Shown piece by piece: positions 46,881 through 54,727 of a DNA stretch of 64,000 nucleotides. Under the pieces are notes generated by a model that was not told the DNA's origin, ran no database searches, and saw nothing but the letters and a program-made list of their open reading frames with translations. Within the stretch, counting starts at the first letter, position 1, and the number at the start of each line of letters is the position of its first letter. A program made the translations under genes and the position numbers. Source of the DNA: Flavobacterium pectinovorum (GTDB lineage Bacteria > Bacteroidota > Bacteroidia > Flavobacteriales > Flavobacteriaceae); assembly GCF_900142715.1 (NCBI RefSeq), contig NZ_FRBX01000001.1:1-64000 (forward strand), written 5' to 3'.

Positions 46881-47762
46881 ATGAATACAATACTACCCTT
46901 TTTTTTAAAATACCTTTTAGCGCCGTTTTTGATACTTATTATAACACTCATTATGAGTCAGTTTTCGAGTGTAAAAATAAAAGCCAAGGCGGCCATAATA
47001 TTTATTTTATGCTTTTCGCTTATAGCAGCTTTACCTTGTTTGTTTGCGTTTTTTAACAATGAGTTTATTTGGTTTGGCTTATTGTTTTCAGTATTATGGT
47101 ACTTAATACTCGGAGTTGGATTGTTGTACTTTATGGATTCTGCCTTATTTCAAAAGATAGAAATACAAAATAGTGCCCCGGCAAAAGTTTTTCTTTTTTT
47201 AATTGTAGCAATTCTCTCTTCCTGGATTTACTACCTGGTGTTTAATTATATCGCTATTTCCAGCTATGCTCATATCAGTATGCTTAATATCCTATGGTTA
47301 TTTGCGCCAATCTTTTTTCAGGAATCAAAGAAAAAATATTTACAGATTCCTGAGTCATTTTATGAATATTGGAGGGTTGGAAAAGAACGTAAAGACATTG
47401 AGTATTGGGACAATATTGATAAGTTTCGTTTAATGCAGGTATCAATACATATAAAGAAAAAAAGCAATTCTGAATTCTTTTCAAAATTTGATGTAAAAAT
47501 TGCCCAGGATGTTAATCTGGGTAATTGGTTTGATAAGTTTATTGAAGACCAAAATTATAGATTTCCCAATGATGCCATAGAATCCAGTGCCGAGCATGAA
47601 GATAAGGGATGGACTTTTTATACGGCAAAATATTTCAGTTTTCCTTTGTTTATCAGGAATCTGAGTCCTTATCAGACGATTTCAGAGGGTAAACTAAAAA
47701 ACAAACAAACCATTTTTGCTAAAAGAGTTACTTTGAAAAAACAAAATCCAATAGAGGAATAA
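46881..47762 (+). CDS. tssN: T6SS membrane protein TssN (Bacteroidota-specific)
   Basis: A 293-residue inner-membrane protein with about five hydrophobic helices in residues 5-155 and a soluble C-terminal domain (about 165-293) rich in charged residues, predicted cytoplasmic. TssN is part of the Bacteroidota TssNQOPR membrane complex that replaces TssJLM and links it to the baseplate; that role is established for Bacteroides fragilis. Here the gene sits between the baseplate genes and tssK. The family assignment rests on topology, length and locus position plus general resemblance. Confidence 0.82.
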   Translation: MNTILPFFLKYLLAPFLILIITLIMSQFSSVKIKAKAAIIFILCFSLIAALPCLFAFFNNEFIWFGLLFSVLWYLILGVGLLYFMDSALFQKIEIQNSAPAKVFLFLIVAILSSWIYYLVFNYIAISSYAHISMLNILWLFAPIFFQESKKKYLQIPESFYEYWRVGKERKDIEYWDNIDKFRLMQVSIHIKKKSNSEFFSKFDVKIAQDVNLGNWFDKFIEDQNYRFPNDAIESSAEHEDKGWTFYTAKYFSFPLFIRNLSPYQTISEGKLKNKQTIFAKRVTLKKQNPIEE

Positions 47763-47836: not shown

Positions 47837-48973
47837 ATGAAATCAAACATACATTTACCAATTAACTGGACAGATGGTGTAAAACTAACAAAAGACCATT
47901 TTATCAATAATTATTTCAATTTTATAACAATTGTCAGTGATTATAATAAAGTTCAGTTAAACAACTTTAATTATGGGGCTATTCAGCCAGCAGGTAATAT
48001 ATCTATAGATGTTGAAATAAAAATTGAAGGTGGACAATTAGTTGCCTATTTAAAAAAATGCGATGTAATTGCCAAAAACGGATATGTAATTTCTTACAAT
48101 CAGGATATTTATGGTACAAAACTTCCTGAAGCAAGTATCAATGCAAATGATTTAGACCGAAATTCTGCAGAGTATTATTACGTTATAGTTTCTATAAATC
48201 CTTATGATCTAATTCCTGTAGGTATTCCAGATCCGGAAATAATTCCGTTACATCATCCTCATGCGCTTCCGGAGATAAAGTTACATATTGTCAAAAAGAA
48301 TGAGGTGAATGATAATTTTTTATCCGGCTACTTTTTAATCGTAAAAAAATTAGCATTTCAAAACGGTACATTCCTTGACGACGGAAAATATATAGCTCCG
48401 GTTGTAAAAACAAAAAACAATGAAACTTTAAATCAATTCATTACAAAAGTTAATACCGAATTATATCAGTTAAACGATTTTTCGATAAAAATTCATAAAA
48501 AAAACGCGCACAGTTCCAGTAACAACAAATTAGTATCGAACACATTTAGTTTGTGTACCAAAATAATTGATTACTATGCAGAGCATTGCTTTTATCTTAA
48601 AAACATAGCTTCTGAAGAAGCTCCGGTGTATATGTTTGACAAAATAATTGTGTTGGCCAATCATCTTATCTCAACATTGACCCTAATGGACGACAAAGAG
48701 AAAGAAATGCTTTTACAATATTATTACGAATGGATTGATGTAAAACCGTCAGAATTACTTAGTGTATTGTTTGAAGCAAAAAGCGCTGTTTATGACCATA
48801 ATGACATTGCGCAAACACTGGAAAAACTAAATCAGTTTCTAGGGATTTTAAAACGCTTATGGCAAAAATTAAGCGAATTAGAATACATCGGAATCAGAAA
48901 AGAAAATATTGTAATTAGTGAAGAAACCAAAGTGTCAGCCCCAAAAAGCAATACGTGGTCAATACTAGATTAA
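47837..48973 (+). CDS. tssK: T6SS baseplate connector TssK
   Basis: A 378-residue TssK-type protein, connecting the baseplate to the membrane complex. The N-terminal shoulder begins INWTDGVKLTKDHFINNYFNFITIVSDYNKVQLNNFNYGAIQ, which matches the family's W-x-x-G-x-x-L-x-x-x-H-F start. A helical neck (about 265-355) with MFDKIIVLANHLISTL follows. It is somewhat shorter than the proteobacterial form (about 450), consistent with a different membrane-complex partner. It is ten bases ahead of the next gene. Confidence 0.88.
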   Translation: MKSNIHLPINWTDGVKLTKDHFINNYFNFITIVSDYNKVQLNNFNYGAIQPAGNISIDVEIKIEGGQLVAYLKKCDVIAKNGYVISYNQDIYGTKLPEASINANDLDRNSAEYYYVIVSINPYDLIPVGIPDPEIIPLHHPHALPEIKLHIVKKNEVNDNFLSGYFLIVKKLAFQNGTFLDDGKYIAPVVKTKNNETLNQFITKVNTELYQLNDFSIKIHKKNAHSSSNNKLVSNTFSLCTKIIDYYAEHCFYLKNIASEEAPVYMFDKIIVLANHLISTLTLMDDKEKEMLLQYYYEWIDVKPSELLSVLFEAKSAVYDHNDIAQTLEKLNQFLGILKRLWQKLSELEYIGIRKENIVISEETKVSAPKSNTWSILD

Positions 48974-48983
48974 ACATACAACT

Positions 48984-49475
48984 ATGAAACCACTTAATCA
49001 CGTTAAAATAGTCAGTAAAAAGCGCAAGTTTTTTATTATGTTTTTTATAACATTCGCTTTTGTTTTTGGTTGTCTCTATATCACGCTGATAACTGCAAAT
49101 AAAGGCGTTGCCGAGTTGGAGCAAAAACATAAATACTACAATGATATCGCAGTAAAACAAGGCGAAATGAACCTGCTCTTAGATGAAATATTAATAGAAA
49201 TCAACGATTTAAGATTTAAAGACAGAACCTTAAACGAGCGCAAAAACCTTCAGTCTCTCATCAATGAGAAAAGATTTGCTATCAATAATGAGATTCAAAA
49301 ATCAAAAACAAATTTGACAAATTCTTTTGTTTTATATGAAGAGTTTTTGGTCGAACTGCAACATATACAGACTAAAATTGACGTTTTGAAAGAAGCCGAG
49401 ACAAATTACGACATAAATAAAACTCAGCTTAAAAAATGTATTGATAAACACGATCAGGAAAATAAAAAAAAATAA
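48984..49475 (+). CDS. T6SS small single-pass membrane protein, TssO/TssQ position
   Basis: A 163-residue protein with a short basic cytoplasmic N terminus, one transmembrane helix (about 18-38) and a mostly helical, coiled-coil-rich periplasmic part with KQGEMNLLLDEILIEINDLRFKDRTLNERKNLQSL. Its place between tssK and the next small membrane protein matches the tssQ/tssO slots of the Bacteroidota membrane-complex genes. It has no lipobox. I cannot tell TssO from a TssQ-like replacement by sequence alone. Confidence 0.65.
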   Translation: MKPLNHVKIVSKKRKFFIMFFITFAFVFGCLYITLITANKGVAELEQKHKYYNDIAVKQGEMNLLLDEILIEINDLRFKDRTLNERKNLQSLINEKRFAINNEIQKSKTNLTNSFVLYEEFLVELQHIQTKIDVLKEAETNYDINKTQLKKCIDKHDQENKKK

Positions 49476-49484
49476 TCCCATTTT

Positions 49485-49955
49485 ATGAAGAAGGCAATAG
49501 AATTTGATGAAACATATTGGAAAAAGGTAAAATTCAACTTATTATTTATCATCAGTGCTTGTATTATATTTATTGTTGTTACCAAGTTTTTATTAAAAAC
49601 ACCCAATTTTAATAATACAGATATGCTCAACAGAATCAATGATTATGAAAAAATGCAGAAGATAAAAGTAGATTATGCTAATAAATCCAGAAAAATTTTC
49701 CAGACCATTGATACAATTAAATATGACATCAACCAGGTACAGCGTATTGATGAAGTAAAAAGAAGAATATCAGATTATAAGCGATTGTATAAGGATAACG
49801 AATTTCATTCGTCATATAACTTTTGTTTAATTGGCGGCAACCTGTTAAATGTTTTTTTAGAGATAAACCTTGAAGAAAGTACCGTGAAAAAGAACGATAC
49901 TCTTGTACAAACAAGTCTTAACGAATGTAAAGCAAATTTTAAAAATGAACATTAA
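49485..49955 (+). CDS. T6SS small single-pass membrane protein, probably TssO
   Basis: A 156-residue protein with an N-terminal cytoplasmic tail, one transmembrane helix (about 17-37) and a helical periplasmic domain containing two cysteines (SSYNFCLIGG and SLNECKANF) that could pair. It has the same size and topology as the preceding gene product but little direct similarity by eye. The last 11 bases (ATGAACATTAA) overlap the start of the PKD-protein gene, indicating translational coupling. The TssO assignment is by topology and order. Confidence 0.68.
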   Translation: MKKAIEFDETYWKKVKFNLLFIISACIIFIVVTKFLLKTPNFNNTDMLNRINDYEKMQKIKVDYANKSRKIFQTIDTIKYDINQVQRIDEVKRRISDYKRLYKDNEFHSSYNFCLIGGNLLNVFLEINLEESTVKKNDTLVQTSLNECKANFKNEH

Positions 49956-50883
49956 AAATAAAACAGTAGTTATCGTTTTGTTTTGTATTGCAATAATTTT
50001 GTTTATAGTGGCATTATTATTCCCGTACAATAAAAGATTAAGTAATCTTGATTTTTCAATATTAGACGATAACGATAATCATCAGTATGAATTAAATGAA
50101 AAATTATCTTTTAAGATAAATGACAGTACATTGATATCAGATAAAAAAGCAGTCTGGTATTTTGGTAACGGTGATTCGATTGTTAGTAAAGGAAGCGTAA
50201 ATTACACTTATGACAGAGCAGGCAAATACTTAGTAACACTCAAAATTGATAATAAATTCGATTTTTCAAAACAAATTAATATCGTCAATGGAAGAGCATT
50301 GACAGCAAAAGATTCTATTCCAAAAATATTTTGCTCAGAGTTTGGTTATGTAGGCGAAGAAATTGTGTTTACAGGATATTCGCCAAGTTCAAACAATTGG
50401 TATTGGGAATTTGGTGAAACCGGAACGATCGATTCTTATGAAAAGCAGGCTATTTATATTTTTACCCAACCCGGTATTTATACCGTAAAATTGGAAACAG
50501 ATAAAACCAGATATCCTATAACAAAAGAAATAGAGATTCTTCAATTGTACGAACCATTCAAAGAACCAGAAGTTGTAGATTCTGCAGGGATTGTTTTGAA
50601 CGATATAAAAAAGCGCCTGCAAATTATTGCCAATCTGGGCGCAAGGGATACAAGAATGTATAAAGAACAGGTTAATTACTTGAAAAATAAATACATCTGC
50701 AATGATTTATCTGATGTAGTAGTAGTGGTAAACGAAGAAAAATACAATGATTTTTTAAGTTATTGTCAGGGACTTCATTACTTAGACGGAAATTCTACTA
50801 TAATTCAGGAAGTAAAATTAGATACCATTAAATGCTTTAAGCAAATAAATGTTACTCAAAAAACTAAAAAACAAAGTAAATAG
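49945..50883 (+). CDS. T6SS membrane-complex PKD-domain protein, TssP-like
   Basis: A 312-residue protein. The start at 49945 is chosen because it overlaps the previous stop by 11 bases and gives a clean N terminus; the longer frame from 49903 lies inside the previous gene. One transmembrane helix (about 6-27) is followed by two PKD-type beta-sandwich domains: about 45-115 (VWYFGNGDS ... YTYDRAGKYLVTLKID) and about 130-200 (NWYWEFGETGT ... IYIFTQPGIYTVKLET). The C-terminal 100 residues are helical. It is expected to span the periplasm. It abuts tssR directly (stop TAG then ATG). Confidence 0.78.
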   Translation: MNIKNKTVVIVLFCIAIILFIVALLFPYNKRLSNLDFSILDDNDNHQYELNEKLSFKINDSTLISDKKAVWYFGNGDSIVSKGSVNYTYDRAGKYLVTLKIDNKFDFSKQINIVNGRALTAKDSIPKIFCSEFGYVGEEIVFTGYSPSSNNWYWEFGETGTIDSYEKQAIYIFTQPGIYTVKLETDKTRYPITKEIEILQLYEPFKEPEVVDSAGIVLNDIKKRLQIIANLGARDTRMYKEQVNYLKNKYICNDLSDVVVVVNEEKYNDFLSYCQGLHYLDGNSTIIQEVKLDTIKCFKQINVTQKTKKQSK

Positions 50884-53208
50884 ATGAAAATTAGTATTTT
50901 ACTTCGATATACCTCGTTGATTTGCTTATTGGTAACAAATGGTGTTTTTTCTCAGGTTAAAAATAGCACAAGTGTTATCGAAAAAACAGGAAAAACAGTA
51001 AACACTTATGATAATGAAAAGCAAAAAGAAAGTGAAAAATCACAGCTTAAATTAGTTTTTTCAGATAGAAGTGATAATAATATTTACGAAGAACCTTATG
51101 GTGCCAAAGTAAACAATAAAGCCAATATTTTGTCTCCAATGTATGTGATCGATGAAGATAAAAACTATTATGAGGTTGTGGTTGCAGATAAAAAATTGAT
51201 TGGAAAACCTAAAGGAACATTTTCCGTTTTACGCAGTAAAAAAAATCATTTTTCTAATGCAAAAGAAGTGCAGTATTTGGGTTGGATTAAAAAAGAAAAT
51301 GTCATTGAATACAGCAGGGCGATGCAAAATCAGGTCAATTTAAAGTATGTAAAATATTTTGTGGCTTCAAATACCTTAGACAACTTGTTTTCCAGTGGTA
51401 AAAATGTCAAAAAAAGCACACTTTTATTAAAGAACGATCCCAACTTAGAATCAGCATCTAAAAAAAATATCAAACTAAATGATTTTGTATATGTATATAA
51501 AATCAACAAAACCACCAATTCAGCCTTTGTATCAAATTTTGATGATGTTATGCCAAAAGACACAACCAATCTTAAATATGGCTGGGTTCCTTTGCAATAT
51601 TTGAATCCTATAGAAGATAATATGGTTGTCAGGCTGAATCCTGCAGATACGCTGCATTTTTCTTCAGGAAAAATTAATTTTCTGGCTAATGAATTGTACA
51701 AGAATACTTTTTTTGTAAATGAAAATCAGTCAAGTGATCCAATCAAGTTCGAAAGCACAAGTAAAATATCGCTGCCCATAAATGTTTGGAACCACGACAA
51801 AAACAAAATTACAAATTTAAAAGGCGATGATATTTCGATTAAAACCATCGAACAAATCGCTTTGGAAAGTAAAAATATTAATTTTTATTACGTTTTTGAG
51901 AACAACAACTCAACAAAGCAATATTTAAAAAAAACACTTTCGGCATTACAGAATCTTAAATTAACGACCAGTAGTGAATTGTATGCCAATTATAATTTTA
52001 CATATTCGTTTATAGCAAAAGGGAAATCTAAAAGTTATTATTTGATAAAATCCCAATCTTTTTCAAAATGGTTTGATTTAATAGAGAAAAGCATTAAGAC
52101 ACCGGATGAAATTTTGGATGAGAATATTTTACGCAACAGTAATACAAATATTAGCCAGTTTTTGAGTTCAGAAACAAATTTTGAAAATAACTTTTTTATC
52201 CTGACAGGTTTAGATGGATCTATAAACAACGTTTTACCGGATAGTTTCAATATTTTGGCAAAAAATAATGCTAAAATATTATTCATTATTTTTAAAAATG
52301 AAAACAATTCCGATAATCAGGATTTTATTCTGCAGAGTAAAATGTATTTAAGCGAGGCAAGTAGTGCCAATAAAAAAAATATTCAGAACTATTATGTTGA
52401 CCCAAAACTGATAGCAAAAAACGATGAGTTTATATACAATGGTGATGTAGATAATGATTATATCTACGATGCACCATTAAAAAGTAATTTTAACGGAGGT
52501 ATCATTTTTCCTAAATTAAATGGAGAGCTTACACCGGAAACTATCAATAAATCCATTGACAGCGTTATTAGTAAAACTATTAAAACAAATAATACATTAT
52601 TAAAATCACTGACACAATACAAAAATGAGTTTAGCTTTTTAAGAAGTCAGCCAAGCGGAACGATTAATAATCTTATTCAAAATTATCCTCGAAAAGACAG
52701 TACAAGCACCGACATACCCAAAAACTATAAAAGCGAAACATTTGTAATAAACGCAAAAGATACCCTTAACAGTAGTTTAGAAAACAAAGTCCATATTTTA
52801 CTGACCGAGAGCGAAATTAAGCAGCTTATAGAAAACTACAGAGAATTAATTAGCAAAGAATATACAAACGCAAATATTGATAAAGTCGAGATTTTAAGCT
52901 TTAGGGACAGATGTAAAATGTTTGCTAGTAAAATTAGACAAACTGAATCAATAAAAAACAGAAGTTCTTTGGCAGATTTACTTTATTACAAGACAAGAGT
53001 ATTTGTAAATAGCCCTGAGTTGCATGAAATAAGGATAAAAGATATTCGAAAGTTTAAGAAAAAACCGGACCAATTCAGAACAATTTTTACAACTTTAAAC
53101 AGTAAGGTTGAGGTTTTAGAAAAAATGCAGCGCAATAATACTTTTGAGGTTTTTGACGATGAATCTCAGACTAAATATTATTATATATCAAAAAAACTTC
53201 TATTATAA
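50884..53208 (+). CDS. tssR: T6SS membrane-complex protein TssR
   Basis: A 774-residue exported protein with a signal peptide of about 24 residues ending in FSQ. It is expected to be the large periplasmic/outer-membrane part of the Bacteroidota membrane complex. An SH3-like N-terminal part (about 55-150, NIYEEPYGAKVNNKANILSPMYVIDEDKNYYEVVV and GWIKKENVIEY) and a von-Willebrand-like or regulatory middle (IFVLTGLDGSINNVLPDS-type segment near 440) can be glimpsed, but I cannot name domains firmly. It follows the PKD gene without a gap. Confidence 0.82.
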   Translation: MKISILLRYTSLICLLVTNGVFSQVKNSTSVIEKTGKTVNTYDNEKQKESEKSQLKLVFSDRSDNNIYEEPYGAKVNNKANILSPMYVIDEDKNYYEVVVADKKLIGKPKGTFSVLRSKKNHFSNAKEVQYLGWIKKENVIEYSRAMQNQVNLKYVKYFVASNTLDNLFSSGKNVKKSTLLLKNDPNLESASKKNIKLNDFVYVYKINKTTNSAFVSNFDDVMPKDTTNLKYGWVPLQYLNPIEDNMVVRLNPADTLHFSSGKINFLANELYKNTFFVNENQSSDPIKFESTSKISLPINVWNHDKNKITNLKGDDISIKTIEQIALESKNINFYYVFENNNSTKQYLKKTLSALQNLKLTTSSELYANYNFTYSFIAKGKSKSYYLIKSQSFSKWFDLIEKSIKTPDEILDENILRNSNTNISQFLSSETNFENNFFILTGLDGSINNVLPDSFNILAKNNAKILFIIFKNENNSDNQDFILQSKMYLSEASSANKKNIQNYYVDPKLIAKNDEFIYNGDVDNDYIYDAPLKSNFNGGIIFPKLNGELTPETINKSIDSVISKTIKTNNTLLKSLTQYKNEFSFLRSQPSGTINNLIQNYPRKDSTSTDIPKNYKSETFVINAKDTLNSSLENKVHILLTESEIKQLIENYRELISKEYTNANIDKVEILSFRDRCKMFASKIRQTESIKNRSSLADLLYYKTRVFVNSPELHEIRIKDIRKFKKKPDQFRTIFTTLNSKVEVLEKMQRNNTFEVFDDESQTKYYYISKKLLL

Positions 53209-53218
53209 AATAAGCATT

Positions 53219-53995
53219 ATGGAGATTATGAATACGATAGAAATGACAAAACCTTTGCATGAAATAATTCTAGAGTTATTTTATTTTGAAAGCAAAGGAA
53301 AACCGTGTGAACTCACAAAAAATGAAATTTTATGGAGACTTAAAGATCCGGGCATTACTGAATATCAAATGGAAGAAGTGCTCAATTGGATGGTACATCA
53401 TAAAAAACTAACCGAAAGTCTGGGGGTTTATTCCCTGGATCGGTTTGAACTAATAGATTTAGAAGAAAAATTTAAAAACGAAAGATTGAATAAAGAGAAA
53501 AAACAAGAACCTATTTTTTTTACTAATTACAGTACCATAAACAATATTCATAGTGCGGTGAGACCAAAACCCATAGAGATAATTGTTCAGTACATTTTAC
53601 CAACGTTTTTACTTTCCTATATTGTTTTTATCTTTTTTTTGGTAAACAAGCTAAATAAAAGTTTTGAAGTCAATAACAGCAAAATTGAAGATGTAAGTGA
53701 GTTAACACTTAAAGAACCTAAAACCGGAGTTATTAAGAAAAAAGCGGCTTTATCAGACAAGGAGGTTAAGCGCCTGTTTTCTAATCAGCACCAAAATATT
53801 TTATATTTAAACAAAACGATTGATTCTTTACAAAAACAAGTAAACAAAATAAATGAAATCCATACAATTGCGACTTCTGATATAAAAACTCAGATAAATT
53901 CATTGCAGCCTCAGGTGAATGCTATCATCTTGCACATTACGGTTGTGCTTCTGGGATTTATTTTATTATTTTTTATGAAAAATATTATTAATTAA
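53219..53995 (+). CDS. Uncharacterised T6SS-locus protein: winged-helix-like N terminus plus two TM helices
   Basis: A 258-residue protein I do not recognise. The start at 53219 is ten bases after tssR; a longer frame from 53144 lies within tssR. Residues 1-80 look like a small helix-turn-helix/winged-helix fold (LTKNEILWRLKDPGITEYQMEEVLNWMVHHKKL). A linker leads to TM1 (about 121-143), then a periplasmic segment with a predicted coiled coil (about 185-232), then TM2 (about 235-255) at the C terminus. The topology would put both ends in the cytoplasm. It is co-directional with the membrane-complex genes and followed by a terminator, so it is likely the last gene of the operon and may be a clade-specific membrane-complex part or regulator. 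Confidence 0.75.
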   Translation: MEIMNTIEMTKPLHEIILELFYFESKGKPCELTKNEILWRLKDPGITEYQMEEVLNWMVHHKKLTESLGVYSLDRFELIDLEEKFKNERLNKEKKQEPIFFTNYSTINNIHSAVRPKPIEIIVQYILPTFLLSYIVFIFFLVNKLNKSFEVNNSKIEDVSELTLKEPKTGVIKKKAALSDKEVKRLFSNQHQNILYLNKTIDSLQKQVNKINEIHTIATSDIKTQINSLQPQVNAIILHITVVLLGFILLFFMKNIIN

Positions 53996-54215: not shown

Positions 54216-54263
54216 ACAAAAAAGAGGTATTCTAAAATCATGTAGAATACCTCTTTTTTTTGT
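54216..54263 (+). terminator. Strong terminator closing the T6SS core operon
   Basis: AAAAAAGAGGTATTCTA and TAGAATACCTCTTTTTT form a 17-bp stem around AAATCATG, followed by more T. It lies 90 bases before hcp, so hcp needs its own promoter. Confidence 0.92.
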
Positions 54264-54331: not shown

Positions 54332-54727
54332 ATGGCATTTAAAGCAATTTTAGAATTCGAAGGAAACGAGTACCAAGTATTATTCTCAAAAGTCGATATG
54401 TTAAGACATACTGATGGTAAAGGAGCAGTTTCATCTGAAATTAAAGGAGGTAGATTAAACCTAAAATTAAAATCTACAGACAATACTACTGTTATCGAAC
54501 AGGCAGTAAACAGTCAGCACAAACCTGTAAGCGGAAAAGTAAAATTTTTCAAAGCAGATTCTGAACAAGTAATGAAAGAACTTTCTTTTGAAAATGCATT
54601 TATTGTATTCTTCAGCGAGCAACTTGATGCTATGGCAGAAACTCCAATGACTACTGAGATCACTTTCTCAGCAGAAAAAATTACATTAGGTAATGCAACA
54701 TTAGATAACAATTGGGCTAAAATCTAA
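54332..54727 (+). CDS. tssD: T6SS tube protein TssD (Hcp), Bacteroidota type
   Basis: A 131-residue Hcp-type protein forming the hexameric inner tube expelled with the effectors. The start at 54332 gives MAFKAILEFEGNEYQVLFSK; the earlier in-frame region includes the terminator and is rejected. The Bacteroidota form is recognised by FEGNEYQVL, SSEIKGGRLNLKLKSTDNT and ITFSAEKITLGNATLDNNW. It is monocistronic between two terminators, as expected for a protein needed in large amounts. Codon choice looks clean and regular, consistent with high expression. Confidence 0.94.
   Translation: MAFKAILEFEGNEYQVLFSKVDMLRHTDGKGAVSSEIKGGRLNLKLKSTDNTTVIEQAVNSQHKPVSGKVKFFKADSEQVMKELSFENAFIVFFSEQLDAMAETPMTTEITFSAEKITLGNATLDNNWAKI

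Follow-up and report, generated by a model that had tools for sequence, protein, structure and literature searches.

The last gene of a type T6SS-iii operon of Bacteroidota in Flavobacterium pectinovorum encodes a real, uncharacterised and lineage-specific component of this secretion system, with an N-terminal domain that belongs to Pfam family DUF5457 (PF17540). The gene closes the operon, is co-inherited with one T6SS-iii clade, joins a winged helix to two transmembrane (TM) helices and is under strong constraint centred on the winged helix. The protein is best explained as a lineage-specific accessory subunit of the T6SS-iii envelope complex, in which the winged helix would act as a cytoplasmic docking module (probability about 0.55). 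So far, the envelope complex of the Bacteroidota T6SS is known from studies of B. fragilis as five proteins, TssNQOPR, and the only one of them that reaches into the cytoplasm is TssN, which binds TssK (PMC10781749). An additional membrane protein, strictly co-inherited and with a cytoplasmic domain of its own, would show that the make-up of this complex differs from lineage to lineage and would offer a testable candidate for baseplate docking. It also gives a concrete functional setting to DUF5457, a family without described function, on which no paper was found in the literature searched.

The window, that is, the whole stretch of 64,000 nucleotides that was analysed, contains the gene as an intact open reading frame of 258 codons, present as a single copy in the F. 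pectinovorum genome. The ATG at 53219 coincides with the start of the conserved part in the orthologues; an alternative TTG start at 53144 was rejected, as all that the longer frame adds is the end of tssR in a different reading frame. The operon has the order tssE-F-H-G-N-K-Q-O-P-R-DUF5457, with tssB-tssC divergent, and the labels of tssK, tssG and tssQ were assigned by position and size, after PMC10781749. The features of the region are listed below.

46881-47762, + strand: tssN, for a subunit of the membrane complex, in contact with the baseplate in B. fragilis (Pfam TssN, E 3e-67)
47837-48973, + strand: tssK, baseplate (position between tssN and tssQ as in PMC10781749; size)
48984-49475, + strand: tssQ (position; single N-terminal TM helix; profile similarity to TssO)
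49485-49955, + strand: tssO (Pfam TssO, E 2.6e-30)
49936-50883, + strand: tssP, with PKD domains (Pfam PKD; position and PKD content as in PMC10781749)
50884-53208, + strand: tssR, the constant upstream neighbour, with a 10 bp gap (Pfam TssR, TssR_M, TssR_VWA and TssR_C)
53219-53995, + strand: DUF5457 gene, 258 amino acids, winged helix and two TM helices, last of the tss operon (open reading frame; PF17540, E 5.8e-34; conserved position; purifying selection)
53252-53503, + strand: winged-helix domain, residues 12-95, predicted to be cytoplasmic (AlphaFold2 models; VIA-align Z about 10 to MarR/PadR/ArsR winged helices)
53570-53662, + strand: region of TM helix 1, residues 118-148 (hydropathy; model helix)
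53756-53920, + strand: long helix before TM2, residues 180-234, predicted to be periplasmic and probably coiled-coil (model helix 180-257, pLDDT 80-90; heptad score)
53921-53983, + strand: TM helix 2, residues 235-255 (hydropathy 2.7; model helix)
54218-54259, + strand: terminator-like hairpin at the operon end, before hcp (17 pairs and a T tail; 1 found against 0.4 expected)
54332-54727, + strand: hcp (tssD), beyond the terminator (open reading frame; 94-98% identical in close relatives)

The gene had been described as the last of its operon, which agrees with its start 10 bp after tssR and with the strong terminator-like hairpin that follows at 54218-54259; the T6SS setting and the oddity of a winged helix combined with two TM helices had also been rightly recognised. 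Its dN/dS of about 0.03-0.06 indicates purifying selection equal in strength to that on the tss genes, and it is therefore not a chance open reading frame. Within the same block, the family profiles of TssQ and TssO aligned over 160 columns with 97% probability (hhalign), and these adjacent genes look like paralogues.

Pfam DUF5457 covered residues 9-97 of the protein with 116.5 bits (curated cut-off 25.2 bits), and the model spans the winged helix alone, without the TM and helical part. The Pfam scan gave no match to Tss families, the NCBIfam scan no meaningful match, the sequence search of the PDB no real relative, and PADLOC weak matches only. Structure prediction, which had been proposed as a check, was performed twice with AlphaFold2, from close relatives in the first run and from sequences down to 24% identity in the second, and both gave a winged helix, a TM helix and a long helix running into TM2. 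The models gave the elements of a winged helix (H13-25, E31-33, H34-41, H48-60, E64-67, E70-73 and H75-94, in the order H1-S1-H2-H3-S2-S3), with a pLDDT mostly of 70-89. A flexible linker at 95-117 (pLDDT <50) leads to the TM helix at 118-148, residues 149-175 are disordered, and a single continuous helix extends from 180 to 257, with its final ~20 residues forming TM2. Overall confidence was moderate (mean pLDDT 68-71, pTM 0.32-0.33), and therefore the domains are to be trusted and their mutual arrangement is not. Hydropathy placed the beginnings of the TM segments near residues 121 and 235, and the two-TM layout was present in all intact orthologues. Structural comparison with VIA-align matched residues ~6-101 to the winged helices of MarR, PadR and ArsR proteins, with Z about 9-10 and an rmsd of 1.6-5 over 70-97 residues. 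The winged-helix-like N terminus and the two TM helices of the original prediction were thus borne out by Pfam, both models, VIA-align and hydropathy.

The periplasmic coiled coil proposed for the same protein held in part. The long helix is there, and the heptad score was significant in the six Flavobacterium copies tested (p 0.0015-0.0075) but not in two of four copies from other genera; because the pattern is significant in the Flavobacterium copies and not in all orthologues, helix 180-234 is likely, and not proven, to be a coiled coil. Its periplasmic placement is a prediction that rests on the two-TM layout and the positively charged C-terminal tails.

The comparison of genomes revealed that the gene is strictly linked to tssR. 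Among 398 Flavobacterium genomes, TssR (counted as true at >190 bits) was found in 20 and a strong DUF5457 match in 13. All 13 matches lay directly downstream of tssR, in 13 of the 20 TssR genomes and in none without TssR (hypergeometric P 9e-20, a value that ignores kinship, the genomes not being independent). The remaining seven TssR genomes carry a T6SS-iii of a second type, with tssH behind tssR and no DUF5457 gene beside it. Two conserved peptides, searched for in about 85,000 species genomes, gave 12 loci, several of them from the same species as in the 398-genome sample, all in Flavobacterium and all with the order tssR-DUF5457-hcp; tssN-K-Q-O-P was also upstream in 11 of the 12. The family-level search added three more Flavobacteriaceae genera, with DUF5457 at 98-107 bits and tssG-N-K-Q-O-P-R-DUF5457 in each; the orthologues in other genera have diverged to 24-28% identity and their position is unchanged. 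A plasmid of Tenacibaculum finnmarkense carries tssK-Q-O-P-R-DUF5457-tssD, and the record's own annotation of the orthologue also reads DUF5457. The linkage to tssR that was to be checked is therefore general among the strong matches, the peptide-scan loci, the three genera and the plasmid, and homologues do not lie mainly outside T6SS loci: the sole outlier is a diverged relative in a mobile element of a single genome.

Across 296 genomes sampled from the phylum, none of the DUF5457 matches above the cut-off lay outside Flavobacterium; TssR was present in other families, with tssH or other genes after tssR. A search of the open reading frames of 14 non-carrier T6SS loci with a full-length profile found no diverged copy; the mobile-element protein of genome G414 was the single clear relative there. 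Weak DUF5457 matches were rejected as chance hits or generic winged helices; they lay in TonB receptors, a TPR protein, a replication-type protein and a nucleotidyltransferase. Some further observations concern individual loci. The plasmid with the T6SS-iii locus of the DUF5457 clade (CP116296.1, locus L123) belongs to a fish-associated T. finnmarkense, and its tssH appears split into two open reading frames. One F. branchiophilum contig holds tssR-DUF5457-hcp only, without tssQ, tssO and tssP there; tandem genes of 254-278 codons lie upstream (L063:3103-8516), and tssG and tssN are on another contig.

For ALTERNATIVES, two less probable alternatives to a docking subunit were retained, namely a regulator of the ToxR kind and an assembly factor that acts transiently, and roles as cargo, effector or immunity protein were disfavoured. 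What the winged helix binds bears most directly on the first of these. Between genera, the winged helix was 33-45% identical, as compared to 5-41%, mostly <25%, for the other segments; as the best conserved part, it should therefore hold most of the selected function, with the membrane part kept as architecture. Its conserved residues include W39, E53 and W57. Of the solved structures with this fold, most bind DNA. The Foldseek E-values for the winged helix were weak (best 0.005), and the list contained both DNA-binding proteins and winged helices that belong to protein complexes, including Nse1-Nse3-Nse4, APC/C and O-methyltransferases, and therefore the fold alone does not decide between binding of DNA and binding of protein. 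A sequence-specific DNA reader is expected to keep a basic, conserved helix. The protein has the winged-helix fold of such readers and lacks this mark: the net charge of the domain is -5 to +2 and mostly acidic, and the putative recognition helix (helix 3) is TEYQMEEVLNW in Flavobacterium, with a net charge of -1, and TERQIREVLDW or a similar sequence in the other genera, with +1 to +2; at one position, Glu in the former gives way to Arg or Lys in the latter. On the evidence of the residues, this acidity and the charge swap argue against DNA binding.

A membrane-tethered one-component regulator with the ToxR/CadC layout would sense the assembly of the envelope complex through its periplasmic helix and switch the transcription of tss, hcp or effector genes through its winged helix. 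Such a regulator would account for a fold nearest to the MarR/PadR/ArsR transcription factors (Z about 10), for the ToxR-type order of N-terminal cytoplasmic winged helix, TM helix and extracytoplasmic part, and for a conserved AT-rich block in the divergent tssB/tssE promoter, but hardly for a mostly acidic domain with a charge swap in its putative recognition helix, nor for a gene that is the last of a structural block instead of standing apart. Moreover, the AT-rich region upstream of the operon gave no convincing palindrome or inverted repeat as operator, in a scoring made without shuffled controls, and the block is equally kept in a genome where the DUF5457 gene is broken (G569). We therefore regard a regulator as unlikely. 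The original prediction had offered both signalling to transcription and docking to the baseplate; docking fits better, because the domain is mostly acidic, the charge of helix 3 is swapped, no clear palindrome was seen and the promoter block persists alongside a broken gene.

A second alternative, judged slightly less probable still, is a post-translational factor of assembly or firing (chaperone, timing or stop) that would make transient contact and not be a stoichiometric subunit. In the TssR tree, all DUF5457 carriers fell in one clade (SH-aLRT 100) with a single non-carrier, and the TssP tree agreed. The carrier label requires two changes on the tree as compared to about 11 in shuffles, and the simplest reading, on a tree whose root was not inferred, would be that the gene was gained once, at the base of the clade, and lost once. 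In the non-carrier (G736), tssR closes the operon, behind it stand a hairpin-like sequence and a DUF5916 gene that is unrelated, and the family-level search reported no DUF5457 match in this genome. One Flavobacterium copy, in genome G656 (L071:11540-13582), is disrupted by an IS3-like insertion, and that of G569 (L068:6124-6899) has a T7 instead of a T8 tract, which shifts the frame and may be a sequencing or assembly error; in both, no damage is apparent in the neighbouring tss genes examined. The T8 tract was also considered as a site of phase variation, and this was rejected, one genome with T7, possibly a sequencing error, being too little. Disrupted or lost copies beside intact tss genes indicate that the protein is not indispensable in every strain. 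Loss or breakage in three members of the carrier clade is what would be expected of a modulator, as is the absence of the gene from other T6SS-iii clades, and two-TM anchoring with a long helix is compatible with it; yet core-like purifying selection and the fixed adjacency to tssR fit a structural part equally well, and on the present observations a transient factor is indistinguishable from an accessory subunit.

The structure of the operon further supports association with the membrane complex. In 21 loci, cargo of 0.6-5 kb occupies the tssH/G, tssN/K and tssK/Q junctions of some strains, and 0.2-1.3 kb separate DUF5457 from hcp, while the tssQ/O, O/P, P/R and R/DUF5457 gaps never exceed 85 bp. 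The uninterrupted tssQ-O-P-R-DUF5457 block indicates that the gene moves together with those for the complex's periplasmic part. The cargo at the tssH/G, tssN/K and tssK/Q junctions, some of it with an Hcp-like part, was seen in loci L069, L067, L071, L123, L066 and L070, and these junctions may be favoured for insertion. That the gene encodes an effector, an immunity protein or some other cargo placed after tssR by chance is very improbable and in practice refuted: variable effector-like cargo does occur after hcp, and immunity proteins can be small membrane proteins, but the gene lies before the terminator inside the structural operon, keeps its position and architecture across five genera while the downstream cargo differs, and has a dN/dS as low as that of core genes.

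An accessory subunit that docks through its winged helix is thus the most likely of several mechanisms, at somewhat better than even odds. The two TM helices, with the long periplasmic helix between them, would anchor the protein in the inner membrane beside TssN, TssQ, TssO, TssP and TssR, and the N-terminal winged helix would face the cytoplasm as a protein-docking module. Its target would most plausibly be the cytoplasmic domain of TssN or the TssK baseplate, and docking would stabilise or position the baseplate-envelope assembly. Membership in the complex, binding of protein rather than DNA, and the partner are each what we infer from these data. More tentatively, and with less than even odds, the protein may be a sixth subunit of the envelope complex in the DUF5457 clade, with a winged helix turned from DNA to protein docking, and so connect the baseplate to the membrane complex by a second route, alongside TssN.

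Comparison with known systems places the protein near the membrane complex and outside its described membership. Its gene is encoded with tssN, tssQ, tssO, tssP and tssR in a T6SS-iii locus, in the same uninterrupted tssQ-O-P-R block, and the product resembles the TssNQOPR proteins as an inner-membrane protein with a long helix between anchors. In contrast, it is outside the five described subunits and absent from the described B. fragilis complex and from other T6SS-iii clades, which work or persist without DUF5457. Profile comparison (hhalign) of the winged helix with TssK and TssN, and of the C-terminal half with TssQ and TssO, gave a probability of <=3.5%, i.e., no detectable similarity to any of the four.

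In PMC10781749, no homologues of the membrane complex are reported outside T6SS loci. TssR-like proteins were observed beside genes for an ABC-transporter ATPase and an FtsX-like permease at L096:8618-11119 (-), L097:8473-10995 (+) and L098:8759-11281 (+), with the TssR N-terminal barrel and VWA domains and, in those scanned, TssR_C or TssR_M too; no other recognisable tss gene was found within 19 kb. These loci may be an exception to that statement or a hint of the origin of TssR. For DUF5457 itself, the outlying relative in genome G414 (L077:9356-10120, -) shares the winged helix, two TM helices and long helical linker (DUF5457 35 bits, above the cut-off), but is 24% identical and is surrounded by genes for mobilisation (MobC, relaxase) and for conjugation (T4SS coupling protein). 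It adjoins a DUF4062 gene, about 850 kb from the tssR of G414, and is possibly a defence or element-borne membrane protein; no convincing counterpart was found in other clade-2 genomes. A two-TM winged-helix module can therefore occur outside the T6SS, and the T6SS protein may be an adopted module.

Regulators of the ToxR/CadC type have a cytoplasmic N-terminal winged helix, a TM helix and an extracytoplasmic sensing part. The DUF5457 protein shares the cytoplasmic N-terminal winged helix, TM and extracytoplasmic part and differs in its two TM helices, its mostly acidic winged helix and its place inside a structural operon; the OmpR-type Trans_reg_C family gave no Pfam match, although the fold is a related winged helix. 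In RodZ, the HTH domain of a membrane protein binds MreB and RodZ itself, not DNA (PMC6946637). The N-terminal cytoplasmic HTH-type domain on a membrane protein is common to both, whereas the HTH of RodZ is of the XRE type and not winged, and RodZ has a single TM helix and is not linked to the T6SS. RodZ is not a relative; it is a precedent for a membrane-anchored HTH that binds a cytoplasmic polymer, and the analogy covers the working principle only.
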